A DNA stretch of 64,000 bases, taken from positions 62,001 to 126,000 of the forward strand of contig NZ_JAJGMW010000003.1 of assembly GCF_020782115.1 (NCBI RefSeq). Direction: 5' to 3'. The notes beneath the pieces are model-generated. The model was not told the origin of the DNA, did not search any database, and saw only the letters and a program-made list of their open reading frames with translations. Shown in pieces: positions 35,283 through 44,769 of the stretch. This DNA is from Leeuwenhoekiella parthenopeia. GTDB lineage: Bacteria; Bacteroidota; Bacteroidia; Flavobacteriales; Flavobacteriaceae. Each line of letters begins with the position of its first letter. Within the stretch, counting starts at the first letter, position 1. A program made the position numbers and the translations under genes.

Positions 35283-35612
35283 CTACTCTTTGGGCTCAAT
35301 CCATTCACCGGCAGCATTGATGTATGCTGTTTCGGCTTCAGCTCCTTCTTTTTCAAGCGTGAGTTTAAAAGTTTTCATTTCGGCATCTGCCCAGGCTTCA
35401 GTCACAGTTGCACCGGCCTTATCTTCTTTTACCGCATCTGTTACTGTAACAGGCAGATCAGAAACTTCAATAGGCGTGTATTTTTGAACGGGTGCTTCTA
35501 CCTGTGTTTTCGCTACGGCCATCTCACCACCGGTTTGTTCCTGAGCATTTATATTCTGTGTAGCGAAAAGCAAAGTTGCTGCTGCGGCTACGGTCATTAC
35601 CAGATTTTTCAT
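35283..35612 (-). CDS. Small secreted PepSY-like protein, copy 1
   Basis: The 109-residue protein has a signal peptide (MKNLVMTVAAAATLLFATQNINAQ) and a mature domain with ALTVT-type strand pattern: VTDAVKEDKAGATVTEAWADAEMKTFKLTL, then AETAYINAAGEWIEPKE. It is a tandem paralogue of the next gene upstream. The fold resembles PepSY/BLIP-like domains by strand pattern. Its function is unknown; it is presumably periplasmic. Confidence 0.75.
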   Translation of the reverse strand: MKNLVMTVAAAATLLFATQNINAQEQTGGEMAVAKTQVEAPVQKYTPIEVSDLPVTVTDAVKEDKAGATVTEAWADAEMKTFKLTLEKEGAEAETAYINAAGEWIEPKE

Positions 35613-35664
35613 AATTAAAGTATTTTGTGCACGAGTAGTGCGGATTATTGAATTTGATTAAAAT

Positions 35665-36000
35665 TTATTTTTTCTGAATTTTCACCCACTTACCTTCTTC
35701 ATTGATGTAAGCTGTTTCCATCTCAGCGCCTTCAGCCTGCAACATGAGTTTGTAGACTTTGAGTTTCTCATTGTAGAACGCCTGATCAACAGTTGCCCCG
35801 GCCTTATCTGCCGCTACTGCAGCAGTTACTTTTTCAGGTAAAGCTGAAGTTTCTACCTTTTCAAACCCATCCTGTTGTACAGGTGCCTGAACTTCGGTTT
35901 TGGTCATCGCTACATCTTCTGAAACGTTTTGAGCATTTATATTTTGTGTTGCAAATAGCATTGTTGCTGCTGCAGCTGCGGTCATAACTAGACTTTTCAT
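35665..36000 (-). CDS. Small secreted PepSY-like protein, copy 2
   Basis: The 111-residue protein has a nearly identical signal peptide to copy 1 (MKSLVMTAAAAATMLFATQ) and a similar mature part: AAVAADKAGATVDQAFYNEKLKVYKLML, then METAYINEEGKWV. The signal peptide is more conserved than the mature part, which suggests an old tandem duplication followed by divergence, or gene conversion at the 5' end. Both genes are on the minus strand with a 52-base gap. Confidence 0.75.
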   Translation of the reverse strand: MKSLVMTAAAAATMLFATQNINAQNVSEDVAMTKTEVQAPVQQDGFEKVETSALPEKVTAAVAADKAGATVDQAFYNEKLKVYKLMLQAEGAEMETAYINEEGKWVKIQKK

Positions 36001-36274: not shown

Positions 36275-36301
36275 TTTTTTAAAAACCTATCTTAACTAAA
36301 T
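36275..36301 (+). repeat. Left terminal inverted repeat of the Mu-type element
   Basis: It is 27 bases, containing AAAAACCTATCTTAACTAAA, and is the perfect reverse complement of 44255-44281. Confidence 0.9.
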
Positions 36302-36306
36302 AAAAA

Positions 36307-36350
36307 GAGAGTTTAAAAAGTGGTGAAAAACATATATTATCCAAACTCTC
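36307..36350. promoter_or_regulatory. Inverted repeat just inside the left end
   Basis: GAGAGTTT (36307-36314) and AAACTCTC (36343-36350) are perfect 8-bp arms 28 bases apart, between the terminal repeat and the first ORF. They may be an operator or an accessory transposase site. Confidence 0.45.
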
Positions 36351-36369
36351 ATTTTTGTATATTTGCTTT

Positions 36370-36546
36370 ATGAAGACTGCTAATCCATACGCTAATAAAG
36401 AGGGAAGACCTGTATTAGGTAAATTCTTTGAATTTGCAGCGTGGGAACGTGAGCAGGAACTAAAAAGGCGTTCTAAACTACCTAATAACGAAATAGAACG
36501 CCTTGAAGCTGCTGAAAACAACTTAGCTAACAAAATGCTAAGTTAA
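36370..36546 (+). CDS. Small protein of unknown function at the left end of the element
   Basis: The 58-residue product begins MKTANPYANKEGRPVLGKFFEF and is a charged helical protein without recognised domain. A TATATTTG box at 36358-36365 lies directly before the ATG, so the transcript would be almost leaderless if that box is used. The gene runs against the other left-end gene, with a 4-base tail overlap. Its position at the end of a Mu-like element resembles cargo or late accessory genes. Confidence 0.5.
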   Translation: MKTANPYANKEGRPVLGKFFEFAAWEREQELKRRSKLPNNEIERLEAAENNLANKMLS

Positions 36547-37136
36547 TCATCTTGAAGCTCTAATAGTACCTTATACGGCTTATTACTGTAAGCCTTAATC
36601 TCGTAGGCTTGCACATTCTCACCTTTAGTAAAAGGAAAACTAAACTCCTCAATAACGATTTCTAAGATACCCAATTCATTCAAGGGGTGAGAATACACAC
36701 TTAAAGACTGTGCCTCTCTTAAAAAGACTGCAAGCAGCTGAAAATCATATATAGGAAAGCAATCCTCATACTTACCATACATTATAGAACTCATTAAAAT
36801 ACCTTTGATGTTTATTTCATAATCATCTTGGTTCCAACGCTCTTTAATAGTTCCGTTAAGTGCCTTTCCTGGCTTATTTGAAATTTTGCGAGGTTTACGC
36901 CTTATTATAGTGTTTTTGCCTTGAATATCAACTATAGGTTCATAAGGCAATAAAAATTTGACTTTACGTGGTTCTGTCTCTCCGGGAGGTATTATGATTG
37001 CTTCAAGATATAAAGGGAAATATTGATTTTCAGCCGATATAAACGATCTTTGAGAAAGACTTATATCATTGACATCCTGTACAAATAAGTCCTGTACAAT
37101 CTTAGGCAAATAATTATTAAAGTTATCTGTATTCAT
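36543..37136 (-). CDS. Phage-like protein of unknown function, possibly DUF6046
   Basis: The 197-residue protein starts MNTDNFNNYLPKIVQDLFVQ and has a core KERWNQDDYEINIKGILM, then ELGILEIVIEEFSFPFTKGENVQAYEIKAYSN. This strand-rich pattern resembles the DUF6046 family of Bacteroidetes phage and prophage proteins, which sits near tail or baseplate genes; I am not certain of the family. It is separated from the capsid gene by a terminator and 178 bases, so it has its own promoter. Confidence 0.6.
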   Translation of the reverse strand: MNTDNFNNYLPKIVQDLFVQDVNDISLSQRSFISAENQYFPLYLEAIIIPPGETEPRKVKFLLPYEPIVDIQGKNTIIRRKPRKISNKPGKALNGTIKERWNQDDYEINIKGILMSSIMYGKYEDCFPIYDFQLLAVFLREAQSLSVYSHPLNELGILEIVIEEFSFPFTKGENVQAYEIKAYSNKPYKVLLELQDD

Positions 37137-37200
37137 AGTTTTAATTTATATTTTTGAAATTGATTGGTGCTATGGTTATTTATTGACTTCGCATCCCCAG

Positions 37201-37232
37201 AGCCGCTAAAGTGAGTACACATTTTAGCGGCT
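37201..37232. promoter_or_regulatory. Hairpin upstream of the DUF6046-like gene
   Basis: AGCCGCTAAA and TTTAGCGGCT form a 10-bp perfect stem separated by 12 bases. On the minus strand it has no T run, so it may be an operator or leader structure; on the plus strand it is followed by TCTTTATT. Confidence 0.5.
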
Positions 37233-37244
37233 TCTTTATTACGC

Positions 37245-37274
37245 AAAAAACCGTCTATAGAAATAGACGGCTTA
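37245..37274 (-). terminator. Terminator after the capsid gene
   Basis: AAGCCGTCTAT and ATAGACGG form the stem, followed on the minus strand by TTTTTT. It ends the ner-to-capsid operon. Confidence 0.85.
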
Positions 37275-37314
37275 ATGACCTGAGAAACTTCTTTTAAAGA
37301 ACGTTTAGCGAATC

Positions 37315-38193
37315 TTAGACCTTAGAGCCTACTATTGCGCCTATTGCTTTATTACGTATTGGCAGAGCTATAAATCTCTTATCAAATCCTACTACCGTAG
37401 CTCGTAACTCTGGATCGTTTTGACGCTCATACATTTTAACTGTACCGTCTGCTTTCATAACCTCTTCTGAAGAGAAAGCAAAAGAGCTAAACGTATCAGT
37501 TTCTTCTGCTATAGAACCAAAAGGCTTTTTCTGAAAAGTGGTAGCGTTGTAAAGAGGATTCTTAGTGAACTCTAACATGTTGAAACCTGCAAATCTTTTT
37601 GGCTTACCATTTACAAAGTCAGTAATATCCTTAAAGGCTTTTAAATCGTGTAAAATTAAATCCTCAGTGTGATGAGGGTCTAAAACTAGATAACGCATAT
37701 CGTAAGGGACATCTAAATCGTCAAACTTGCGTTTTAACAATAGAATATTTTCAACAGTTACACGCTTTGTTCCCTCTCCATTGTCTGCTCCTGTAGTTGG
37801 GATGACTGGTGTTAATATTCCATCAGCATTAGGGGCGTAAGCGTGTGCAGCTTTCATAAAGGTTTTCTTTCTCAGGCTCATTCTATGACCATAAAGAACC
37901 GTTTCCATTTTATCGTAACTGCGTTCTACTTCATCTGGATGCCTCACTAAGGTATTCTCAGTTTCAAATAAATCTAGCTCAAAAGACAAAGGCGTATCGT
38001 CACGCTCTTTTATCACAATTGGGTAGGTTGTATTGTTTATCAATACATCAGGATCAAATCCAGCATCAGCCATATTGATAATATCATACTCAGCCATCGG
38101 GCTAAAGTCTCGGGCAAAGTTTAGAAATGATGCCTCGGGATAATAATGTTTCATAATCTGGCTAGTCCAGATTTGCTTGTTTAGTGTACTCAT
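37315..38193 (-). CDS. Major capsid protein, HK97-fold type
   Basis: The 292-residue protein resembles major head subunits of Mu-like and other tailed phages. It has an N-terminal helix-rich arm (LNKQIWTSQIMKHYYPEASF), the NTTYPIVIKERDDTPLSFELD strand region expected of the E-loop, VENILLLKRKFDDLDVPYDMRYLVLDP, which matches the spine helix and following strand of the P domain, and a C-terminal VVGFDKRFIALPIRNKAIGAIV strand. It lies 18 bases after the prohead protease gene, the standard arrangement in head modules. It is the last gene before a terminator. No decoration, portal or terminase gene follows. Confidence 0.8.
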   Translation of the reverse strand: MSTLNKQIWTSQIMKHYYPEASFLNFARDFSPMAEYDIINMADAGFDPDVLINNTTYPIVIKERDDTPLSFELDLFETENTLVRHPDEVERSYDKMETVLYGHRMSLRKKTFMKAAHAYAPNADGILTPVIPTTGADNGEGTKRVTVENILLLKRKFDDLDVPYDMRYLVLDPHHTEDLILHDLKAFKDITDFVNGKPKRFAGFNMLEFTKNPLYNATTFQKKPFGSIAEETDTFSSFAFSSEEVMKADGTVKMYERQNDPELRATVVGFDKRFIALPIRNKAIGAIVGSKV

Positions 38194-38211
38194 GTTTATA
38201 TAAAATTTAGA

Positions 38212-39084
38212 TTATTTTTTAAATTGATTATCAACGAGCTGTTGAAATAAAACGGGATTGTTTTCTAGTTCCTTAGGAGCGTATAATCTGTAGTCTTCTA
38301 AATCCCATTCAGCTTTAGCCTTGGTGCTAGTATCCTTACCAGAATTGGTGATTTTACGCTGCTCAACGAGTTCTAAAAGCGATAAGGTTTTAAGATTTAA
38401 CAAACTCATTACAGTAGCCTTACCCTTTTTAAAATCCTCTTTAAATAGCTTTGTGTAAAGCTCTTTTGTAACTGGGTCTAACTTCTTACGTTCGCTCAGT
38501 AGTTCAAGTAATTCATGAGCCTCTTCCTCTTGATGGTTTTCTACTTTTTCTATCTGAGCTTTGAGTTTGATATTTTCAGAATTCAGGTTTTGAACTAGTT
38601 TTAATATCTGGGAGTGTTCTGGGGTCTGATACAGCTTTAATAAATTTGTTGCTGTATTGGTTGCCGTTAATTGTATTAGGCTTAGTTCTGCTAACTCTTC
38701 ATCATTATAAAGGCGTAAGGCATTTTGATTTGAGCCAACATCAACAATTGATATTTCATAAAGCTTGCATTTTTTTATAGTATCGCCCGCTCTATCATCA
38801 GGATTAAACTTTATACCTACGCTTGCGCTCTTTAGAAAGCCTCTCTCAACCTTTCCTGCTATCTCCTTAGCTTTGGGGTCATCCATATCAAAAACGGCAT
38901 CAGCGTAAAGCTTATCACTTTCTACAGATAGGTTTTCCCAACGTCCAATTATAGTGGGGCGTTCGTGCATATAAAGCATAATAGGGTTTCTCTCAAATTG
39001 GGTAAGATCAATACCGCTTGTGAGTAGTTTAAAGCCGTGATCGTTTAGGCTCTCGTCTGATACTAAAAATCTGTGTTTCTTCAT
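38212..39084 (-). CDS. HK97-type prohead protease with C-terminal scaffold-like region
   Basis: The 290-residue protein has the serine protease pattern of phage prohead proteases: histidine in IMLYMHERPTIIGRW (H40), serine in GFLKSASVGIKF (S88), and the later LYEISIVDVGSNQNAL segment near residue 110. Residues 150-290 are helical and charged, with heptad-like ENIKLKAQIEKVENHQEEEAHELLELL, a likely internal scaffold (delta domain). It would assemble and mature the capsid made by the next gene. It lies 5 bases after an unknown ORF. Confidence 0.83.
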   Translation of the reverse strand: MKKHRFLVSDESLNDHGFKLLTSGIDLTQFERNPIMLYMHERPTIIGRWENLSVESDKLYADAVFDMDDPKAKEIAGKVERGFLKSASVGIKFNPDDRAGDTIKKCKLYEISIVDVGSNQNALRLYNDEELAELSLIQLTATNTATNLLKLYQTPEHSQILKLVQNLNSENIKLKAQIEKVENHQEEEAHELLELLSERKKLDPVTKELYTKLFKEDFKKGKATVMSLLNLKTLSLLELVEQRKITNSGKDTSTKAKAEWDLEDYRLYAPKELENNPVLFQQLVDNQFKK

Positions 39085-39089
39085 TGTTA

Positions 39090-39428
39090 TTATTTAAGGT
39101 TATGTATATCTCTAAAATCTCCTTTGTTGTATCGGTCATCCAGTAAAGCATCTAAAAACTCAGATTCTTCTAAAGTGACCATTTGCGAAGCCACTTTTGA
39201 AAGCCCGTAGATTACATCTATATCAACTTTATCGTAATCGTTTAACTCCATAAATGAAAGATCTTTAATGGCGTTAATGATGCTTCTTAATGCTTTGGCT
39301 TTCTCAAGATGTGTATCAAACGAAACCAAAGCGGTAGTTAAAGGCTTGTCAAGTGTTTGCTCTTTTGAAAAAAAACAGTTAACCTCTTTTAAGGCTTCCA
39401 TGTTTATTTTTGTGATTCTATTTTCCAT
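39090..39428 (-). CDS. Unknown protein between the MuB-like and head genes
   Basis: The 112-residue acidic helical protein begins MENRITKINMEALKEV and ends FRDIHNLK. No domain is recognised. It lies 25 bases after the 144-residue ORF and 5 bases before the protease gene, so it belongs to the same transcript. Its position could fit a head-assembly or regulatory role, but this is only positional. Confidence 0.65.
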   Translation of the reverse strand: MENRITKINMEALKEVNCFFSKEQTLDKPLTTALVSFDTHLEKAKALRSIINAIKDLSFMELNDYDKVDIDVIYGLSKVASQMVTLEESEFLDALLDDRYNKGDFRDIHNLK

Positions 39429-39453
39429 AATTTAAAAGCGTTTTAAAAGGTTA

Positions 39454-39888
39454 TTATTTACCGTTTCTTCTTGTTTTTCTAGAGGGTAGCTCTCCGTACA
39501 TTTCACGGTAGTGTTTATTGAAAAAAATCATTTCTTTACGGCTAATACTTAAGTCATTCACAACGCTGATATATATTAAGCCTAAGCAGTAGTTTTTATC
39601 TTTTTTACCACGGTCATCTATATGACCTACTGCCTTTTCATATTTTATCAAATGCACCAACAATTTATCAACCTCCCCTATGTGCATTTGATACCAGTTC
39701 CAGAACTGAGGCAGTTTAAGCAAGTACATATTATTAGGGTGATGGCGTTCTAGCATAAGATTGCCATACTCCCAGATCATTACATGCCAATCTTCCTCAG
39801 TGATTTCAAATAAATCCATTAGAAGCTCTTTATCTTTAGCTATTACCTTCTTTGATTTATTACCTTGCGATTGCGTTGTTGTTTTCAT
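39454..39888 (-). CDS. Unknown protein after the MuB-like ATPase
   Basis: The 144-residue protein has a basic N-terminus (NKSKKVIAKDKELL), a central WHVMIWEYGNLMLERH segment, and a very basic end LPSRKTRRNGK. Its start overlaps the stop of the ATPase gene (ATGA). No family is recognised. It is conserved in position with the small early genes that follow A and B in Mu-like phages. Confidence 0.65.
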   Translation of the reverse strand: MKTTTQSQGNKSKKVIAKDKELLMDLFEITEEDWHVMIWEYGNLMLERHHPNNMYLLKLPQFWNWYQMHIGEVDKLLVHLIKYEKAVGHIDDRGKKDKNYCLGLIYISVVNDLSISRKEMIFFNKHYREMYGELPSRKTRRNGK

Positions 39889-40715
39889 TCTGAATACTTT
39901 AAGTTGTGAATAGAATTGCGTACATATCTGAAATTGCCTAGCCTGTACATAGCTCGAATGCTTTCTTCATCGGTTACACCGTTATTCATACAGATGCTTT
40001 TTATCTCAAGCTTACTAGGCTCTACTAAGTGTTGCCATTGAGCTACACGGCCGTAGAATTCTGGCATTCCTATTTTGTTTTTGTCTGAGCCTTTTTTGAT
40101 ATTCAATAAGAGGTATTCTACACCTGCTATAATGATTCCGGCATTGTTCTCTATACCGTCCAGCATATCTTGTATGTACATCAGGCAATTAGCGGAAAGC
40201 TTACTGGCTTCATCGATAATCAAAAGGGAATCCTCTTTTTTATTGAACTCTTCAATGATATATTTAACCATTTCAAAGTCTGAGGCTAAGTAATTTATAC
40301 CCATTGATTTTAGTATCTCGCTTAAGAACTGCTTAGACCTCATAGAACGGGTACAAGTGACCATAAACGTGTTAGAATGGCTCTCGTAATAGTTTACTAA
40401 GGCGGTTGTTTTACCTGCACCTGTGTAACCTATAATACCTATCATTGTGCGACGGTTACGAGCTTCATCGCATTTGTTTTGAACGGTTGAAAAGTTTGTT
40501 GTTTCAACTATAGCCCAATCTTTAGCCCTGAAAAAGCTTTTGATTTTGTGCAGCATACTATCGTTTACACGCTCCCAAACATTATTTTGAATATTAGAGA
40601 GGGTAGCAGAACTAACACCTATCATTTCGGCTAGTTTCTTCTGGCTCACTTCTTTTTTCTGAGTAAATTGACTAACTAAGTCTTGAATCTCTTGTTGTAA
40701 TTCGGTTTTTTTCAT
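39885..40715 (-). CDS. MuB-like AAA ATPase with N-terminal helix-turn-helix
   Basis: The 276-residue protein has an XRE-like HTH at about residues 20-62 (VSQKKLAEMIGVSSATLSNIQNN) and an AAA domain with Walker A GYTGAGKT at 96-103, Walker B LLIIDEA at 164-170, and a sensor-like NAGIIIAGVEYLLL. This is the MuB/TniB arrangement: an ATP-dependent DNA-binding protein that selects target DNA and activates the transposase. It follows the transposase gene by about 20 bases. Confidence 0.93.
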   Translation of the reverse strand: MKKTELQQEIQDLVSQFTQKKEVSQKKLAEMIGVSSATLSNIQNNVWERVNDSMLHKIKSFFRAKDWAIVETTNFSTVQNKCDEARNRRTMIGIIGYTGAGKTTALVNYYESHSNTFMVTCTRSMRSKQFLSEILKSMGINYLASDFEMVKYIIEEFNKKEDSLLIIDEASKLSANCLMYIQDMLDGIENNAGIIIAGVEYLLLNIKKGSDKNKIGMPEFYGRVAQWQHLVEPSKLEIKSICMNNGVTDEESIRAMYRLGNFRYVRNSIHNLKYSE

Positions 40716-40735
40716 AGTTTTGAGTAACTTTTATA

Positions 40736-42898
40736 TCATTTTTGGTTGGGCTTTCCAACCACTTTTAAAGAGCCTAATTTGAGGGGCTCTTTTTTTTGTA
40801 ATAACCTCTCGTGTGCATCAGGGTTAACACCTTTTCGGGTGATGACTTTGATAGGTTTAAAATTGCGCTCCTCTTCATCATCTTTACTTATATTCTTTTG
40901 TTGTAAAAACAGATTATGGAGTTTAGTCTCCTCAGCGTTAACCGTGTTTTTATCTAGGCTTAACGGGTGTGCAATTTCTAGTTCATCTTTATTAATAGCC
41001 CTAAGTCCCTTATCTATAATATCCTCGGTTTGCTCTTTTAAGAAATTGTTGTAGCTCTTATTTTTAGCCTCAATTATGGCAGTTTTAAGCTCTTCATTTT
41101 CGTCTCTATCTGCTACAGACATGTGTATATCTACGGCTTTACGACATTCACAAATAGGTGTGTCATGCTCCAAATCAAACAGCATAACCGTATCTAGATC
41201 GTTAGGATCATAGCGCACTGCAACCCTAACCCCTTGCAAAGTGGCTTTAAGTTCATGTTGGTGTATCTCGTAGCAATATTCTGTTTTGCGGTATTTTAAC
41301 TTAACCATACCACGTTTTATAGTATGCTTGGTTTTAGTCCAGAACATAAGCGCTGTTTTAACTGCATCCATTTCTACAGCTTTTGGCTTTGGCATACCTC
41401 TGTAAACAGTACTAGGGGCTTTCTTTTCGCCTAGTGAGCGTTGGTTATAGGTTGCAATCATTACAGAAATACGATGCATCATTTCTTTAGTGGTAACAGT
41501 TCGTTTTCTGGCTATTTCTGCTAAAAAATCATCATTAGGACGAGCGTTTAAACGCTTGCTTTTTATACCCTCACCTATGTAGTCATCGTATAAGGCACAC
41601 TCTACAGATTGAAATGCACCAAAGAACCGCTCTATGTAAGATTTATCTTTTGCATTGCGTACTTTGGAATGTCTCCAGTAAACAGATAGCTTTTCCATTT
41701 GAGCTTTTAGCTCTATAATTTCTTCGGTCTTATTTGCAGAAAAGTTGTCTGAAACGATCTCAGCAGGTAGATGCCCCTCACTCATTACAGCCATTTTAAG
41801 AGCTTGCATAATGCTATAGCGGTCTTCGCTATGTGCAATATCAAAACCTACTATTTTACGGCTGCAAACGTCTATAACAGCAAATAAATAGAGCCTTATA
41901 ACCTTAGTGCGGCTCTCATTCCAACAGAAAAACTGCACAGGAGTACCGTCTATCATCCACACATTACCCGGGTATGTAGGTAATTTTCTAACAGCGTGTG
42001 GTAATAACCAATCGTCAAAATGTTTCGCACCGTATCTATGTTGATTTACAAGGGTTTTAAACTTCTTATCCTTACTCATTAAGCTTTTAACCCAACTTTC
42101 AGTAACTGTAGGTTTGCCCTCCTGTAAACAGTGGTGATTTATTAAATCTGTAGCAACACGGTAAGCGTAAACTTTAGGATGACTCAATATAGAAAGCGCT
42201 AAAGCCTTGTGAAATTCGTCTGTTTTCTGGCGGTGATTGTTCTGCTTTGTATTCTTTATAGCAATCATTTCTATAAAACTTTGATCGCTATACTCTCTAG
42301 CCTCTCTGAGGTCTTTTAAACGCTTTCTAAAGTGAACAAGGCTATCAGTATTAGTAGTTAGTGTTACGCGTGTTCTAACGTCTAAATAGTGGTCAAAACC
42401 TACAGAAACCTTACCTCTAAAGGCTTTGTACTTTGTTCCTGTAATTTCGAGCATTCTAACCCAAAACGCATGATCTTTGGCAGATTGAGCCGCAAGCTCT
42501 TCACAACGTTTAGGATTGTGGGCGTACCACTCACGGTAAGTTTCTAAATATTTAAACCATTGGGTATTGTAAGCCTCTACTAATGACTGTCGCTCTTTGT
42601 CAAACCTAAAAAGCTTATCTTTCTCAGCTTCTTGTAGGGCTTTTTCTAGTGCTTCTTGTTGCTCTAGGTATTGTTTTTTAGCATACTCATTTGAAGTTGG
42701 TATATTGTATTTCTTCCGACTTCTTGGCGGTACGCTATCAAGATTAACCAAATAACCTTTTCCGTTTGGGTTTGGAATGTTTTCCCACGAGTTTGACTTA
42801 CCAGTGCGGAACTCCGATAAAGCTTTTAGAACAAAGCCTTCGGACATTCCTAATTCTTCAAGTACATGATGAGAAACAAAACCTATCATACTAACCAT
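40736..42898 (-). CDS. MuA-like DDE transposase
   Basis: The 720-residue protein has an N-terminal DNA-binding region (residues 1-60 with HHVLEELGMSEGF), helical end-binding domains, and an rve-type core with catalytic D317 (WMIDGT), D384 (EIVSDNF) and E423 (YIERFFGAF). A beta-barrel domain follows (VKLKYRKTEYCYE), then a basic C-terminal part for the ATPase contact. It is the enzyme for replicative transposition. The start is ATG 42898, overlapping the Ner-like gene by 8 bases. All catalytic residues are present, so it may be active. Confidence 0.94.
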   Translation of the reverse strand: MVSMIGFVSHHVLEELGMSEGFVLKALSEFRTGKSNSWENIPNPNGKGYLVNLDSVPPRSRKKYNIPTSNEYAKKQYLEQQEALEKALQEAEKDKLFRFDKERQSLVEAYNTQWFKYLETYREWYAHNPKRCEELAAQSAKDHAFWVRMLEITGTKYKAFRGKVSVGFDHYLDVRTRVTLTTNTDSLVHFRKRLKDLREAREYSDQSFIEMIAIKNTKQNNHRQKTDEFHKALALSILSHPKVYAYRVATDLINHHCLQEGKPTVTESWVKSLMSKDKKFKTLVNQHRYGAKHFDDWLLPHAVRKLPTYPGNVWMIDGTPVQFFCWNESRTKVIRLYLFAVIDVCSRKIVGFDIAHSEDRYSIMQALKMAVMSEGHLPAEIVSDNFSANKTEEIIELKAQMEKLSVYWRHSKVRNAKDKSYIERFFGAFQSVECALYDDYIGEGIKSKRLNARPNDDFLAEIARKRTVTTKEMMHRISVMIATYNQRSLGEKKAPSTVYRGMPKPKAVEMDAVKTALMFWTKTKHTIKRGMVKLKYRKTEYCYEIHQHELKATLQGVRVAVRYDPNDLDTVMLFDLEHDTPICECRKAVDIHMSVADRDENEELKTAIIEAKNKSYNNFLKEQTEDIIDKGLRAINKDELEIAHPLSLDKNTVNAEETKLHNLFLQQKNISKDDEEERNFKPIKVITRKGVNPDAHERLLQKKEPLKLGSLKVVGKPNQK

Positions 42899-43115
42899 TT
42901 AGATTGTTCTCACACTCTTCTATTGAAGCCTGAATTTTCTTCCTAACCTTAATAATCGCTTTATTCATTTGAATAAAGGTTTTAAACGAGCAGTCCTCAC
43001 CGTTTAAAAAGTTGTAAACTGTTTTATGAGATAAACCGCTTTCCTCAACAATTAATTTTTTTGAGCCTCTTGGAAGATTAGCATAGACTTCCTTCAATTT
43101 TTCGTTTATTTGCAT
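42891..43115 (-). CDS. Small Ner/Cro-like HTH regulator
   Basis: The 74-residue protein carries a helix-turn-helix (KLIVEESGLSHKTVYNFLNG) at about residues 19-38. It is the first gene of the leftward operon, facing the repressor across a 104-base region with palindromes, the place occupied by ner in Mu and cro in lambda. It probably shuts down repressor transcription. Confidence 0.75.
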   Translation of the reverse strand: MQINEKLKEVYANLPRGSKKLIVEESGLSHKTVYNFLNGEDCSFKTFIQMNKAIIKVRKKIQASIEECENNLNG

Positions 43116-43144
43116 ATCAGTTACCGATTAATTATGACACAAAT

Positions 43145-43215
43145 ATATCAATAATTGATATTTAAATACCTAAAAATGAAATTATTTTTTGATAGACTAA
43201 CTAAATCAATAATTA
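43145..43215. promoter_or_regulatory. Operator region between repressor and Ner-like genes
   Basis: A perfect 17-bp palindrome ATATCAATAATTGATAT lies at 43145-43161, and a related site with ATCAATAATTA lies at 43205-43215, just before the repressor ATG. A third, weaker relative (CGATTAATTATGA) is at about 43129. This arrangement fits a switch bound by the two HTH proteins. Confidence 0.65.
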
Positions 43216-43219
43216 TGTT

Positions 43220-43828
43220 ATGAGTGAGTACCGTGAAATTTTCAGAGCAATAAGAAAAAAGAATAAACTTTCTCAAGAGGAATTTGGAGAGGCTCTAGGG
43301 GTTAGTAGAAGTGCAATAGGTCAGGTTGAGTTAGGGAAAAACAATATGTCTGGCGATATGGCCATTAAGATATCTGAGAAATTCGGGGTTTCTATCGAAC
43401 ACTTGTTAAGTCGTGATTTAACTGGGGTTTTGAGTGATCTTGATATAGATCAGGTGATTCCTAATGAATTCGATGTATGGGAGAATTTAGACTTTCACGC
43501 GGAATCAGGTTACATACTTCACGCGATAGATAAAATTGAGGTAGCAAAAATATTGATCGATAAATTCCGCAAAGACAAAAAACTGAAAGCTGAGCCTCTT
43601 ATTTATGACACTATCAGTGCAAATAATAATTTAGAATCACTCAAACAACAGTTTTTAAAGGAATCAAATGGTTTTCAGCAGAACCCTAAATTTGTCTACA
43701 AACTAAAAAAACTCATAGACGCCTGTCTTCAAGCTATTTATATTGATCTCTTCAATACAGTGGGTATGGGTTACGATGGATGGAATGAATATTATAAGTC
43801 TTCACCAAGGTTTAATAACAAAAAGTAA
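43220..43828 (+). CDS. XRE family repressor of the element
   Basis: The 202-residue protein has an N-terminal XRE domain (residues 5-63, with KLSQEEFGEALGVSRSAIGQVE) and a C-terminal domain of unknown fold that lacks the Ser-Lys autoprotease pattern of LexA/CI. It is transcribed away from the transposition operon, as the Mu c repressor is. It would keep the element silent. How it is inactivated cannot be seen. Confidence 0.85.
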   Translation: MSEYREIFRAIRKKNKLSQEEFGEALGVSRSAIGQVELGKNNMSGDMAIKISEKFGVSIEHLLSRDLTGVLSDLDIDQVIPNEFDVWENLDFHAESGYILHAIDKIEVAKILIDKFRKDKKLKAEPLIYDTISANNNLESLKQQFLKESNGFQQNPKFVYKLKKLIDACLQAIYIDLFNTVGMGYDGWNEYYKSSPRFNNKK

Positions 43829-43904
43829 CCTAAATAGTAAGTCTACCGTAATAAAATGACACTTAAATATCAAAATGACACGTAATTTTATATAGATTTG
43901 TTCT

Positions 43905-44126
43905 ATGAATTACGATGAGAAAAAAAAAGGTACAGAACGTAACAAATTACTACGCTACAAAAAGATTTTAGACGTTTACCTAGAACACAAAACAGAAGAT
44001 ATACCAACAGCTGTAGTATATCGCAAGTACATCTACCCACAATTTTTTATTAGCCGCACAACGCTTTATGCGGTTTTAGGTACGCCAGTAAACAAATTGC
44101 TCAAAGAACTGGGCGAAGACGTCTAA
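43905..44126 (+). CDS. Small HTH-like protein near the right end
   Basis: The 73-residue basic protein starts MNYDEKKKGTERNKLLRYKK and has a segment YIYPQFFISRTTLYAVLGTPVNKLLKEL that could form a helix-turn-helix. It lies between the repressor and the right-end binding-site array. No family is recognised. A role in end binding or regulation is inferred from position. Confidence 0.6.
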   Translation: MNYDEKKKGTERNKLLRYKKILDVYLEHKTEDIPTAVVYRKYIYPQFFISRTTLYAVLGTPVNKLLKELGEDV

Positions 44127-44130
44127 AACG

Positions 44131-44163
44131 CGGTTTAATCTCCTTTTAAATGGCGTTTAATCA
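44131..44163. repeat. Two related GCG(G)TTTAATC sites inside the right end
   Basis: GCGGTTTAATC at 44131-44141 and GCGTTTAATC at 44154-44163 lie 23 bases apart, close to the iteron array. They may be further protein-binding sites. Confidence 0.4.
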
Positions 44164-44178
44164 CTACTTTACAGAAGA

Positions 44179-44255
44179 AAATAACGGTATAAACACTTTA
44201 TAGCGATATGCAGCTATTTAAAATAACGGTATAATATCGCTAAATAGCGGTATAA
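44179..44255 (+). repeat. Iteron array at the right end, likely transposase binding sites
   Basis: Three near-identical 14-bp units AAATARCGGTATAA begin at 44179, 44221 and 44242, and a weaker one begins at 44198, so spacings are 19, 23 and 21 bases (about two helical turns). The terminal repeat begins one further step away. This resembles the arrays of 22-bp sites bound by MuA or TnsB. No such array is seen at the left end. Confidence 0.75.
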
Positions 44256-44281
44256 TTTAGTTAAGATAGGTTTTTAAAAAA
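44255..44281 (-). repeat. Right terminal inverted repeat of the Mu-type element
   Basis: It is 27 bases with AGTTAAGATAGGTTTTTAAA, the perfect reverse complement of the left repeat. Outside it the sequences diverge completely. The 62 bases from here to 44343 carry no gene. Confidence 0.9.
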
Positions 44282-44343: not shown

Positions 44344-44769
44344 TTAAGATATGTTTTTAAAAGACGGGGATAAATCAGGCGGTTTACGGTTTGCCTTTTT
44401 CTGGGCGTTTTGCTTTTTAGATTCGAGCCTACGCTTTTTGGACGCCAAAGTAGGCCGGGTCTTTTTTCGTTTTTTGGGTATTACCAAAGCTTTCTCAAGC
44501 AACTGGACCAAATTTTTAAAAACTTCTTCCTTGTTTTTATGCTGACTTCGGCTTTGATCGTAGGACAATACCAACTGGTTCTCTGTAGTGAGTTTGGAAG
44601 CCAAACGTTGACCTAATCGCTCTTTTTGCTCCTCTGTAAAAACAGCCGAAGCTTCAAGATCCCAGTGTAGCATGACCTTTGTAGATGTCTTATTCACGTG
44701 CTGGCCTCCGGGACCACTACTGCGCACCGCTTTAAACTCACATTCAGATTGCAGGATTTCCTTATTCAT
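44344..44769 (-). CDS. arfB: ArfB-like peptidyl-tRNA hydrolase / release factor family protein
   Basis: The 141-residue protein has the GGQ motif in VRSSGPGGQHVNKTSTKVML near residue 22 and a basic C-terminal tail rich in Lys and Arg that binds the mRNA channel in ArfB. It rescues stalled ribosomes. The tail ends SPSFKNIS, encoded in bases that look like a diverged copy of the element terminal repeat. It is the last gene of a six-gene minus-strand operon. Confidence 0.88.
   Translation of the reverse strand: MNKEILQSECEFKAVRSSGPGGQHVNKTSTKVMLHWDLEASAVFTEEQKERLGQRLASKLTTENQLVLSYDQSRSQHKNKEEVFKNLVQLLEKALVIPKKRKKTRPTLASKKRRLESKKQNAQKKANRKPPDLSPSFKNIS

Follow-up and report, generated by a model that had tools for sequence, protein, structure and literature searches.

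The window analysed here, a stretch of 64,000 nucleotides from Leeuwenhoekiella parthenopeia (contig NZ_JAJGMW010000003.1, positions 62,001 to 126,000), contains a compact Mu-type element at 36275-44281 that combines transposition genes with capsid genes of its own. It is bounded by perfect 27-bp inverted repeats, as a preliminary description of this DNA had claimed: the right terminal repeat (36275-36301, forward strand) is complementary at 27/27 positions to the left, repressor-side repeat (44255-44281, reverse strand). As the junction forms a palindrome, TTTTTAAAAA, some of the outer T6/A6 may belong to the target; due to this AT-palindrome and to flanking intergenic sequence unlike that of congeners, the exact ends and the target duplication cannot be fixed. 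Three 21-nt direct repeats (beginning AAATAACGGTATAA, repeat family D2) lie at the left end on the forward strand (44179-44262).

From the left end inward, e73 (43905-44126, forward strand) encodes a small all-helical protein, 69% identical over 61 amino acids (aa) to a gene of a prophage residing in the same genome. The best of its five AlphaFold2 models reached a predicted local distance difference test score (pLDDT) of 86.6, the other four 49-65, and comparison with the PDB gave no match at E 0.001. The neighboring repressor gene (43220-43828, forward strand) is recognized as HTH_3 by Pfam and PHROG profiles. On the reverse strand lie a Ner-like small regulator (42891-43115) with weak matches (phrog_2136, E 0.002; phrog_6223, E 0.007), a MuA transposase (40736-42898; phrog_310) with intact DDE residues D317, D384 and E423, and a MuB-like AAA ATPase (39885-40715; phrog_296) with Walker A at residue 96 and LLIIDE at 164. 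They are followed by u144 (39454-39888, 144 aa; no Pfam match, all PHROG matches at E 0.015 or worse), u112 (39090-39428, 112 aa; no Pfam match, a single PHROG match at E 0.05), a prohead protease of the S78 type (38212-39084; PF04586, 2.5e-9; phrog_80) and a major capsid protein (MCP; 37315-38193; phrog_267, 7.6e-14) that scored 21.9 against Pfam Phage_capsid_2, under the cut-off of 25. The C-terminal part of the protease appears diverged and is perhaps scaffold-like. Two terminator-like hairpins (37195-37282) separate the capsid gene from the next gene; the first (37200-37233, forward strand) came from a scan, and the second was read by eye and is missing from the scan list. That next gene encodes a DUF6046 tail protein (36543-37136, reverse strand; PF19512, 6e-29; phrog_5233, baseplate hub), which in phages is placed between the tape measure and the baseplate hub; its AlphaFold2 model (pLDDT 35.5) was unusable. 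The small gene e63 (36370-36546, forward strand) at the right end has a small counterpart in the resident prophage, the two proteins being 74% identical over 54 aa.

The profiles and the residue check thus agree with the preliminary description on the repressor, MuA, MuB with its Walker motifs, the element's own prohead protease and capsid protein and, weakly, the Ner-like regulator; its gene list had overlooked e63 and e73. Its statement that there was no tail set holds for most tail genes, which were not found, and had passed over the DUF6046 gene. It was also right that terminase and portal are missing: neither a portal nor a large terminase subunit was matched by Pfam or PHROG in the ten element proteins scanned, e63 being outside the scan, and no further open reading frame (ORF) of at least 60 aa is present in the element beyond the named genes. 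Two weak matches of MuB to small terminase subunits (E 0.007 and 0.016), both within its helix-turn-helix (HTH)/ATPase part, were read as HTH/ATPase noise and rejected. The element therefore has the repressor, MuA, MuB and inverted ends of a Mu-like phage, and the full head-packaging-tail-lysis gene set of such a phage was not found with Pfam and PHROG or among leftover ORFs. Nor does it have the broken genes and scars of a decayed prophage; as described earlier, the named genes are all open, and they are of normal length beside their relatives.

A single copy of the element is present in its genome. The flanks of its site lie 17-101 bp apart in seven of 12 congeners (G001, G003, G005, G008, G009, G010 and G011, the call for G011 involving a left-flank match of 56 bp only), which shows that the element is an insertion. 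The right flank alone was seen in G002, G004 and G007, both flanks, less clearly, in G006, and neither in G012. A full-length phage at the same site, the outcome that the preliminary description had set against its own proposal, was not seen among the 12 congeners. Separately, a nearly perfect second copy of the element's end (TTAAGATATGTTTTTAAAA, 44344-44362) lies 62 bp outside the element at the end of the neighboring gene. This copy was not evident in the congener sequences compared and could be either the relic of an older insertion or a chance occurrence.

The compact unit recurs in other genomes, as the preliminary description had proposed to look for. Together with the window, 24 compact records represent 22 distinct elements; the 23 further records represent 21 other elements, two of them doubtful. 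Scans with single MuA or MCP sequences for close relatives found nothing, and a DUF6046 scan gave no compact element by the screen applied; the family was found by alignment-based patterns built from protease and MCP alignments. A protease-alignment scan of IMG/VR (best 80 of 205 matches) gave two compact contigs with full-length protease similarity, and MCP-alignment scans of genome contigs and IMG/VR added further compact records (best 80 of 490 matches in the last scan). The named hosts are Riemerella columbina DSM 16469 and Phocaeicola oris 14-104, and metagenome-assembled genomes (MAGs) with compact elements belong to Tidjanibacter, Saprospiraceae and Flavobacteriaceae. A compact-type MCP was found in one of 397 genomes of the window's taxonomic family and one of 395 of its phylum, in both cases the window's own. 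A second match of the phylum scan (G619) was rejected as a compact element, being a phage with a 33% identical MCP and a sheath gene. Three human-faecal phage records with 36-40% identical MCPs (H1-H3) looked like short elements; H1 and H3 carry lysis-like and tape-measure-like ORFs behind the capsid gene and were rejected by eye as fragments of full phages. Relatives of the R. columbina MCP (37-39%) also occur on the plasmid-filed sequences NZ_CP137560.1 and OY726025.1 (Segatella hominis, Phocaeicola massiliensis).

The compact MCPs are 50-75% identical to that of the window, and those of the sampled phages at most 48%. In a tree of 92 MCPs, made by a quick method without bootstrap, all 21 compact rows (MCPs of at least 240 aa) form one clade with a Shimodaira-Hasegawa-like approximate likelihood ratio test (SH-aLRT) value of 100, nested among 71 phage rows. 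Five of these phage rows (L175, L268, L306, L313 and L323) have no match for the large terminase subunit (TerL) on the stretch covered and were labelled from sheath, portal or regX. Left out of the tree were two partial MCPs, L273 (202 aa) and L296 (196 aa), of which L296 but not L273 is cut by a contig end, the duplicate MCPs L262, L271 and L281, and L233, which is the L147 element (100% identical proteins). Outside the tree, L254/L255 (99.9% over 4353 bp) and L261/L262 (99.9% over 6313 bp) were each counted as one element. The transposition proteins of the window point the same way: its MuA is nearest to those of compact elements (L227 and L234, 44%; best phage 25%), and the four best matches of its MuB are all compact (46-64%; best phage 30%).

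Gene content varies within the family. The same MCP clade is served by two kinds of protease, S78 (window, L147, L230) versus ClpP-type (L228, L256, L257, L262). A baseplate hub gene is found in seven records representing six elements (L148, L235, L253, L254/L255, L257, L259), PHROGs confirming the two that were tested, and is split into two ORFs in L257. References for TerL, portal, gp7, DUF1320, sheath and tape measure had no match in the 24 compact records, many of which are short contigs. In phages a divergent terminase operon directly precedes the protease, a place taken in most compact loci by MuB or small ORFs. Sequence on both sides of the element is available for the window, R. columbina, P. 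oris and L257 and, judged by eye, for the Tidjanibacter L229 and for L262. The L257 element splits a host gene read by eye as glycerate kinase, and its junctions have 4 bp (CATG) in common, with no clean 5.

The preliminary description had suggested a search for larger Mu-like prophages as helpers, and a candidate is present in the same genome. A full Mu-like prophage of 37,071 bp (C12:41131-78201, coordinates read from the sequence) has a 5-bp target duplication, TATGT, and PHROG matches for terminase large subunit, portal, minor head protein, neck, sheath and hub; it is laid out like the isolated Winogradskyella phage Peternella_1. Judged by eye from the translation that spans the junction, the gene interrupted by this prophage reads as the type I restriction specificity gene hsdS. 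Identity between element and prophage is 74% for e63, 69% for e73, 49% for DUF6046, 44% for the protease (residues 1-142), 36% for MCP, 28% for MuB and 22% for MuA. The small genes and the tail protein are therefore far closer between the two than the transposition genes, and the two MuA proteins belong to different lineages. In addition, e63 and e73 lie at opposite ends of the element, whereas in the phage both are within or adjacent to the portal operon, a difference in placement that plain deletion does not explain. Among the 397 family genomes, MCP relatives at E 1e-15 were found in the window genome and six others, all six with terminase and portal, and the C12-type terminase (E <=1e-90) occurs in two of 328 other genomes of the window's family.

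In C12, G271 and G225, e73 is encoded on the early-gene strand next to where the portal operon ends (its 3′ end in C12). Judged from gene position alone, a role as late regulator would suit e73, which may be likened to the satellite/helper counterparts P4 delta and P2 ogr. Genes of the e73 family also occur at G343:C3:63082-63279 and G099:C50:8103-8297 (L062-L066). Lysis-like genes, judged by eye, stand nearby, and the Mu, capsid and terminase references used gave no match there; the loci may encode tail-like particles or be phage remnants that share the regulator. The G225 phage (L032, L036, L037) has a head/tail module of the C12 type (terminase 63%) and a shortened e73, and no MuA match was seen in it. 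From this phage, it is possible that the C12-type structural module has moved between integration systems.

Element and resident prophage also have a left-end site in common. Within the terminal 155 bp of the element, a candidate pac or operator site (44217-44246, reverse strand) is identical at 26/30 positions, in the same orientation, to C12:78046-78075 in the left-end region of the prophage. The site scores 40, a value that none of 2000 shuffles attained (best 38), and when the C12 stretch was divided into 290 pieces the piece with the site scored 40 and the next 30. A matrix made from element and C12 has its best match in the G271 prophage (18.3, next 13.5) at the left end of that prophage, and with a matrix made from C12 and G271 the top match in the whole 64-kb window is the element's site (27.7 vs 17.3). 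In the remaining phages apart from Peternella_1 the element and C12 matrix reaches 6-11, at places unrelated to the ends. BLAST of the window element's left end against 68 phage loci, most of which end short of the phage ends, likewise gave C12 as the best match (E 0.001, next 0.013), at that site. A common transposase does not explain this, since the MuA proteins of C12 and G271 are 66% identical to each other and only 22-25% to that of the element. We read it as a candidate packaging site; it may also be an operator.

Among five genomes with other compact elements, a terminase with 44-45% identity to that of C12 is present in the two named strains, R. columbina and P. oris; these belong to other groups, so the rate of two in 328 serves as a rough background only. 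In each of the two, a prophage encodes repressor, MuA, MuB, portal, terminase, protease and MCP. At a length of 3,965 bp, the P. oris element consists of protease, MCP, an e73-like gene and small ORFs, and no transposase match was found in it. Its right end is identical to that of the resident phage at 24/24 positions and its left end at 24/27 and 28/32, and among the 68 phage loci only the resident phage gave E 0.01 or better at both ends. The assembly contains three junctions of each kind, left and right, so that the compact form not only recurs outside the window, where the preliminary description had allowed for its being unique, but also occupies three sites in one genome. With the ends set as in the resident phage, two junction pairs show 5-bp duplications (CATTT and CTCTT). 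As this form keeps ends that fit those of the helper, it was probably transposed in trans by the resident phage. For the R. columbina element, an uninterrupted copy of the target marks both limits and indicates a duplication of 5-6 bp. End or left-end sites in common with a resident phage were seen for the window element and for P. oris, and none for R. columbina.

The best reading of these data is that the compact elements are capsid-forming satellites of transposable phages. We consider it likely that the window element is a phage satellite living as a Mu-type transposon and dependent on the resident Mu-like phage; it lacks the genes for an infectious particle and has a compatible phage at hand, compatibility being judged from common genes and sites only. 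Somewhat less firmly, we think it probable that such elements are natural mini-Mus of several Bacteroidota groups, whose own shell and protease set the headful length, and that the 4-kb form depends on a helper for transposition as well. The element would insert and replicate by its own MuA and MuB, both genes being present, and on induction of the helper it would replicate by transposition. Its MCP and protease/scaffold would form its own head shell, while portal, terminase, neck, most of the tail and lysis would be taken from the resident phage, whose packaging would probably start at the left-end site that satellite and helper have in common. Mu-type phages package by headful from the integrated copy. 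By this rule a normal (37-kb) head with a 4-8 kb element would contain mostly host DNA, which provides a reason for an own, probably smaller capsid that would fit the satellite and exclude the helper. In a Bacteroides Mu-like phage, left-end headful packaging brings along host DNA from both sides, 29-31 bp at the left and 1-2.3 kb at the right, according to passages of one report (PMC12135933).

The preliminary description had weighed a satellite against a clean deletion derivative, and the satellite is now much better supported by recurrence, the one MCP clade and the three P. oris sites. That each compact locus is a separate local wreck, left by a clean deletion in a Mu-like prophage and retained by chance, would account for the fact that all identified genes are of phage type, for an order (MuA-MuB-..-protease-MCP) that is a phage's with the middle removed, and for the damaged look of L273. 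Separate wrecks are nevertheless hard to reconcile with a single clade of 21 MCPs of 240 aa or more or with three copies in P. oris, and the different lineages of the window and resident transposases, together with e63 and e73 at the two ends of the element but in or beside the phage portal operon, also speak against deletion, which we therefore hold to be quite improbable. A role in guarding the host, with capsid protein and protease as a decoy that poisons assembly of the resident phage and the element itself left unpackaged, is unlikely, if a little less so. In its favor, no portal or terminase was found in the element, and redirection of helper capsids is a known satellite trick (PMC12409344); a protease, conserved ends, multi-copy transposition, tail proteins and a left-end site in common with the phage all fit a packaged element better. 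Least probable to us is a helper-free transposon whose capsid would serve the element itself, be it as a compartment holding DNA or in vesicles. The three MAGs without a helper terminase and two 4-kb forms with little beyond protease and MCP would suit it, but the P. oris form, lacking a transposase, should rely on a helper to move if for nothing else, and a helper-type phage is present in the window genome and in both named strains.

Several observations weigh against the satellite reading or its parts. Phage MCPs are under-sampled, since the searches were seeded with compact MCPs and the best 80 kept. The MuB proteins of R. columbina, L257 and L148 are no nearer to the window's than some phage MuBs are. 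In L234, a small ORF between protease and MCP is weakly similar (36% over 52 aa, E 1.5e-4) to the HTH region of regX, a candidate small terminase subunit. Two members are doubtful: L263 is followed by ORFs that look phage-replication-like by eye, and the L273 MCP lacks its first 93 residues inside its contig and so appears damaged. The distance of the common site from the end is 35 bp in the element and about 127 bp in C12 and G271, so that it could be an operator instead of pac, and the best match of the element and C12 matrix in Peternella_1 is weaker (14.3), near the left end and in the opposite orientation. No C12-type terminase was found in the three MAGs with compact elements, which may be incomplete. 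The third P. oris junction pair (AATAT/CATAC) is unmatched, and comparison of the R. columbina element with its resident phage, whose exact end was not located, gave no left-end site above the control (26 vs 30).

Known satellites resemble the element in part. In P4/P2 and the Staphylococcus aureus pathogenicity islands (SaPIs), satellites have packaging sites and small regulatory genes in common with the helper, a sharing for which the window element is a candidate; they remodel the helper capsid, have no MCP of their own and use integrases, whereas the window element brings its own MCP. Peternella_1 (Winoviridae) and other Bacteroidota Mu-like phages likewise begin with MuA-MuB and draw on the same families of capsid protein and protease. 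They are, however, full phages, 33-40 kb long and equipped with terminase, portal and tail; the candidate helpers have their layout. Laboratory mini-Mus are man-made and have no capsid gene. Miniature inverted-repeat transposable elements (MITEs) have no protein genes, as stated in passages of a 2024 review (PMC11389934). Both are short elements moved in trans by an end-recognizing transposase; unlike either, compact elements carry capsid genes. Capsid-forming phage-inducible chromosomal islands (cf-PICIs) encode, in the parts of PMC10690885 that describe them, MCP, protease, portal, connectors, both terminase subunits and HNH, and need a helper for tails alone. The window element is like them in having its own MCP and head protease and no tail set. 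It differs in that portal, connectors and terminase had no match (Pfam, PHROG, 24 compact records), and in its MuA-type transposase, no site-specific integrase family being seen among the ten proteins scanned. The Streptomyces satellites MulchRoom and MiniFlayer also have their own capsid genes; in the same parts of PMC10690885 they encode terminases, portal, scaffold and adapter, with a tyrosine integrase as lysogeny module where present. Terminases and portal were not found in the compact family, which moves by MuA-type transposition. The passages of the 2024 review (PMC11389934) that list satellites name the P4-like, PICI, cfPICI, PLE, PICMI, VEIME and Tycheposon types and no Mu-type satellite. 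No description of Mu-type satellites of this kind was found in the open PubMed Central literature, subscription papers and most preprints being outside the search; as far as searched, Mu-type capsid-carrying satellites have not been described before.

If the family is real as read, transposable phages too have satellites, and a shell and a protease would suffice to parasitize a Mu-like phage. Headful packaging from the integrated copy would then be a concrete reason for a satellite to have its own capsid, and if the heads are not filled exactly, compact elements would also carry flanking host DNA. These proposals are testable in the named hosts, R. columbina DSM 16469 and P. oris 14-104.

Next to the right end of the element, a tandem pair of paralogous small-protein genes occupies 35283-36000. 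In some congeners these genes match at several nearby places, which suggests that their copy number varies.

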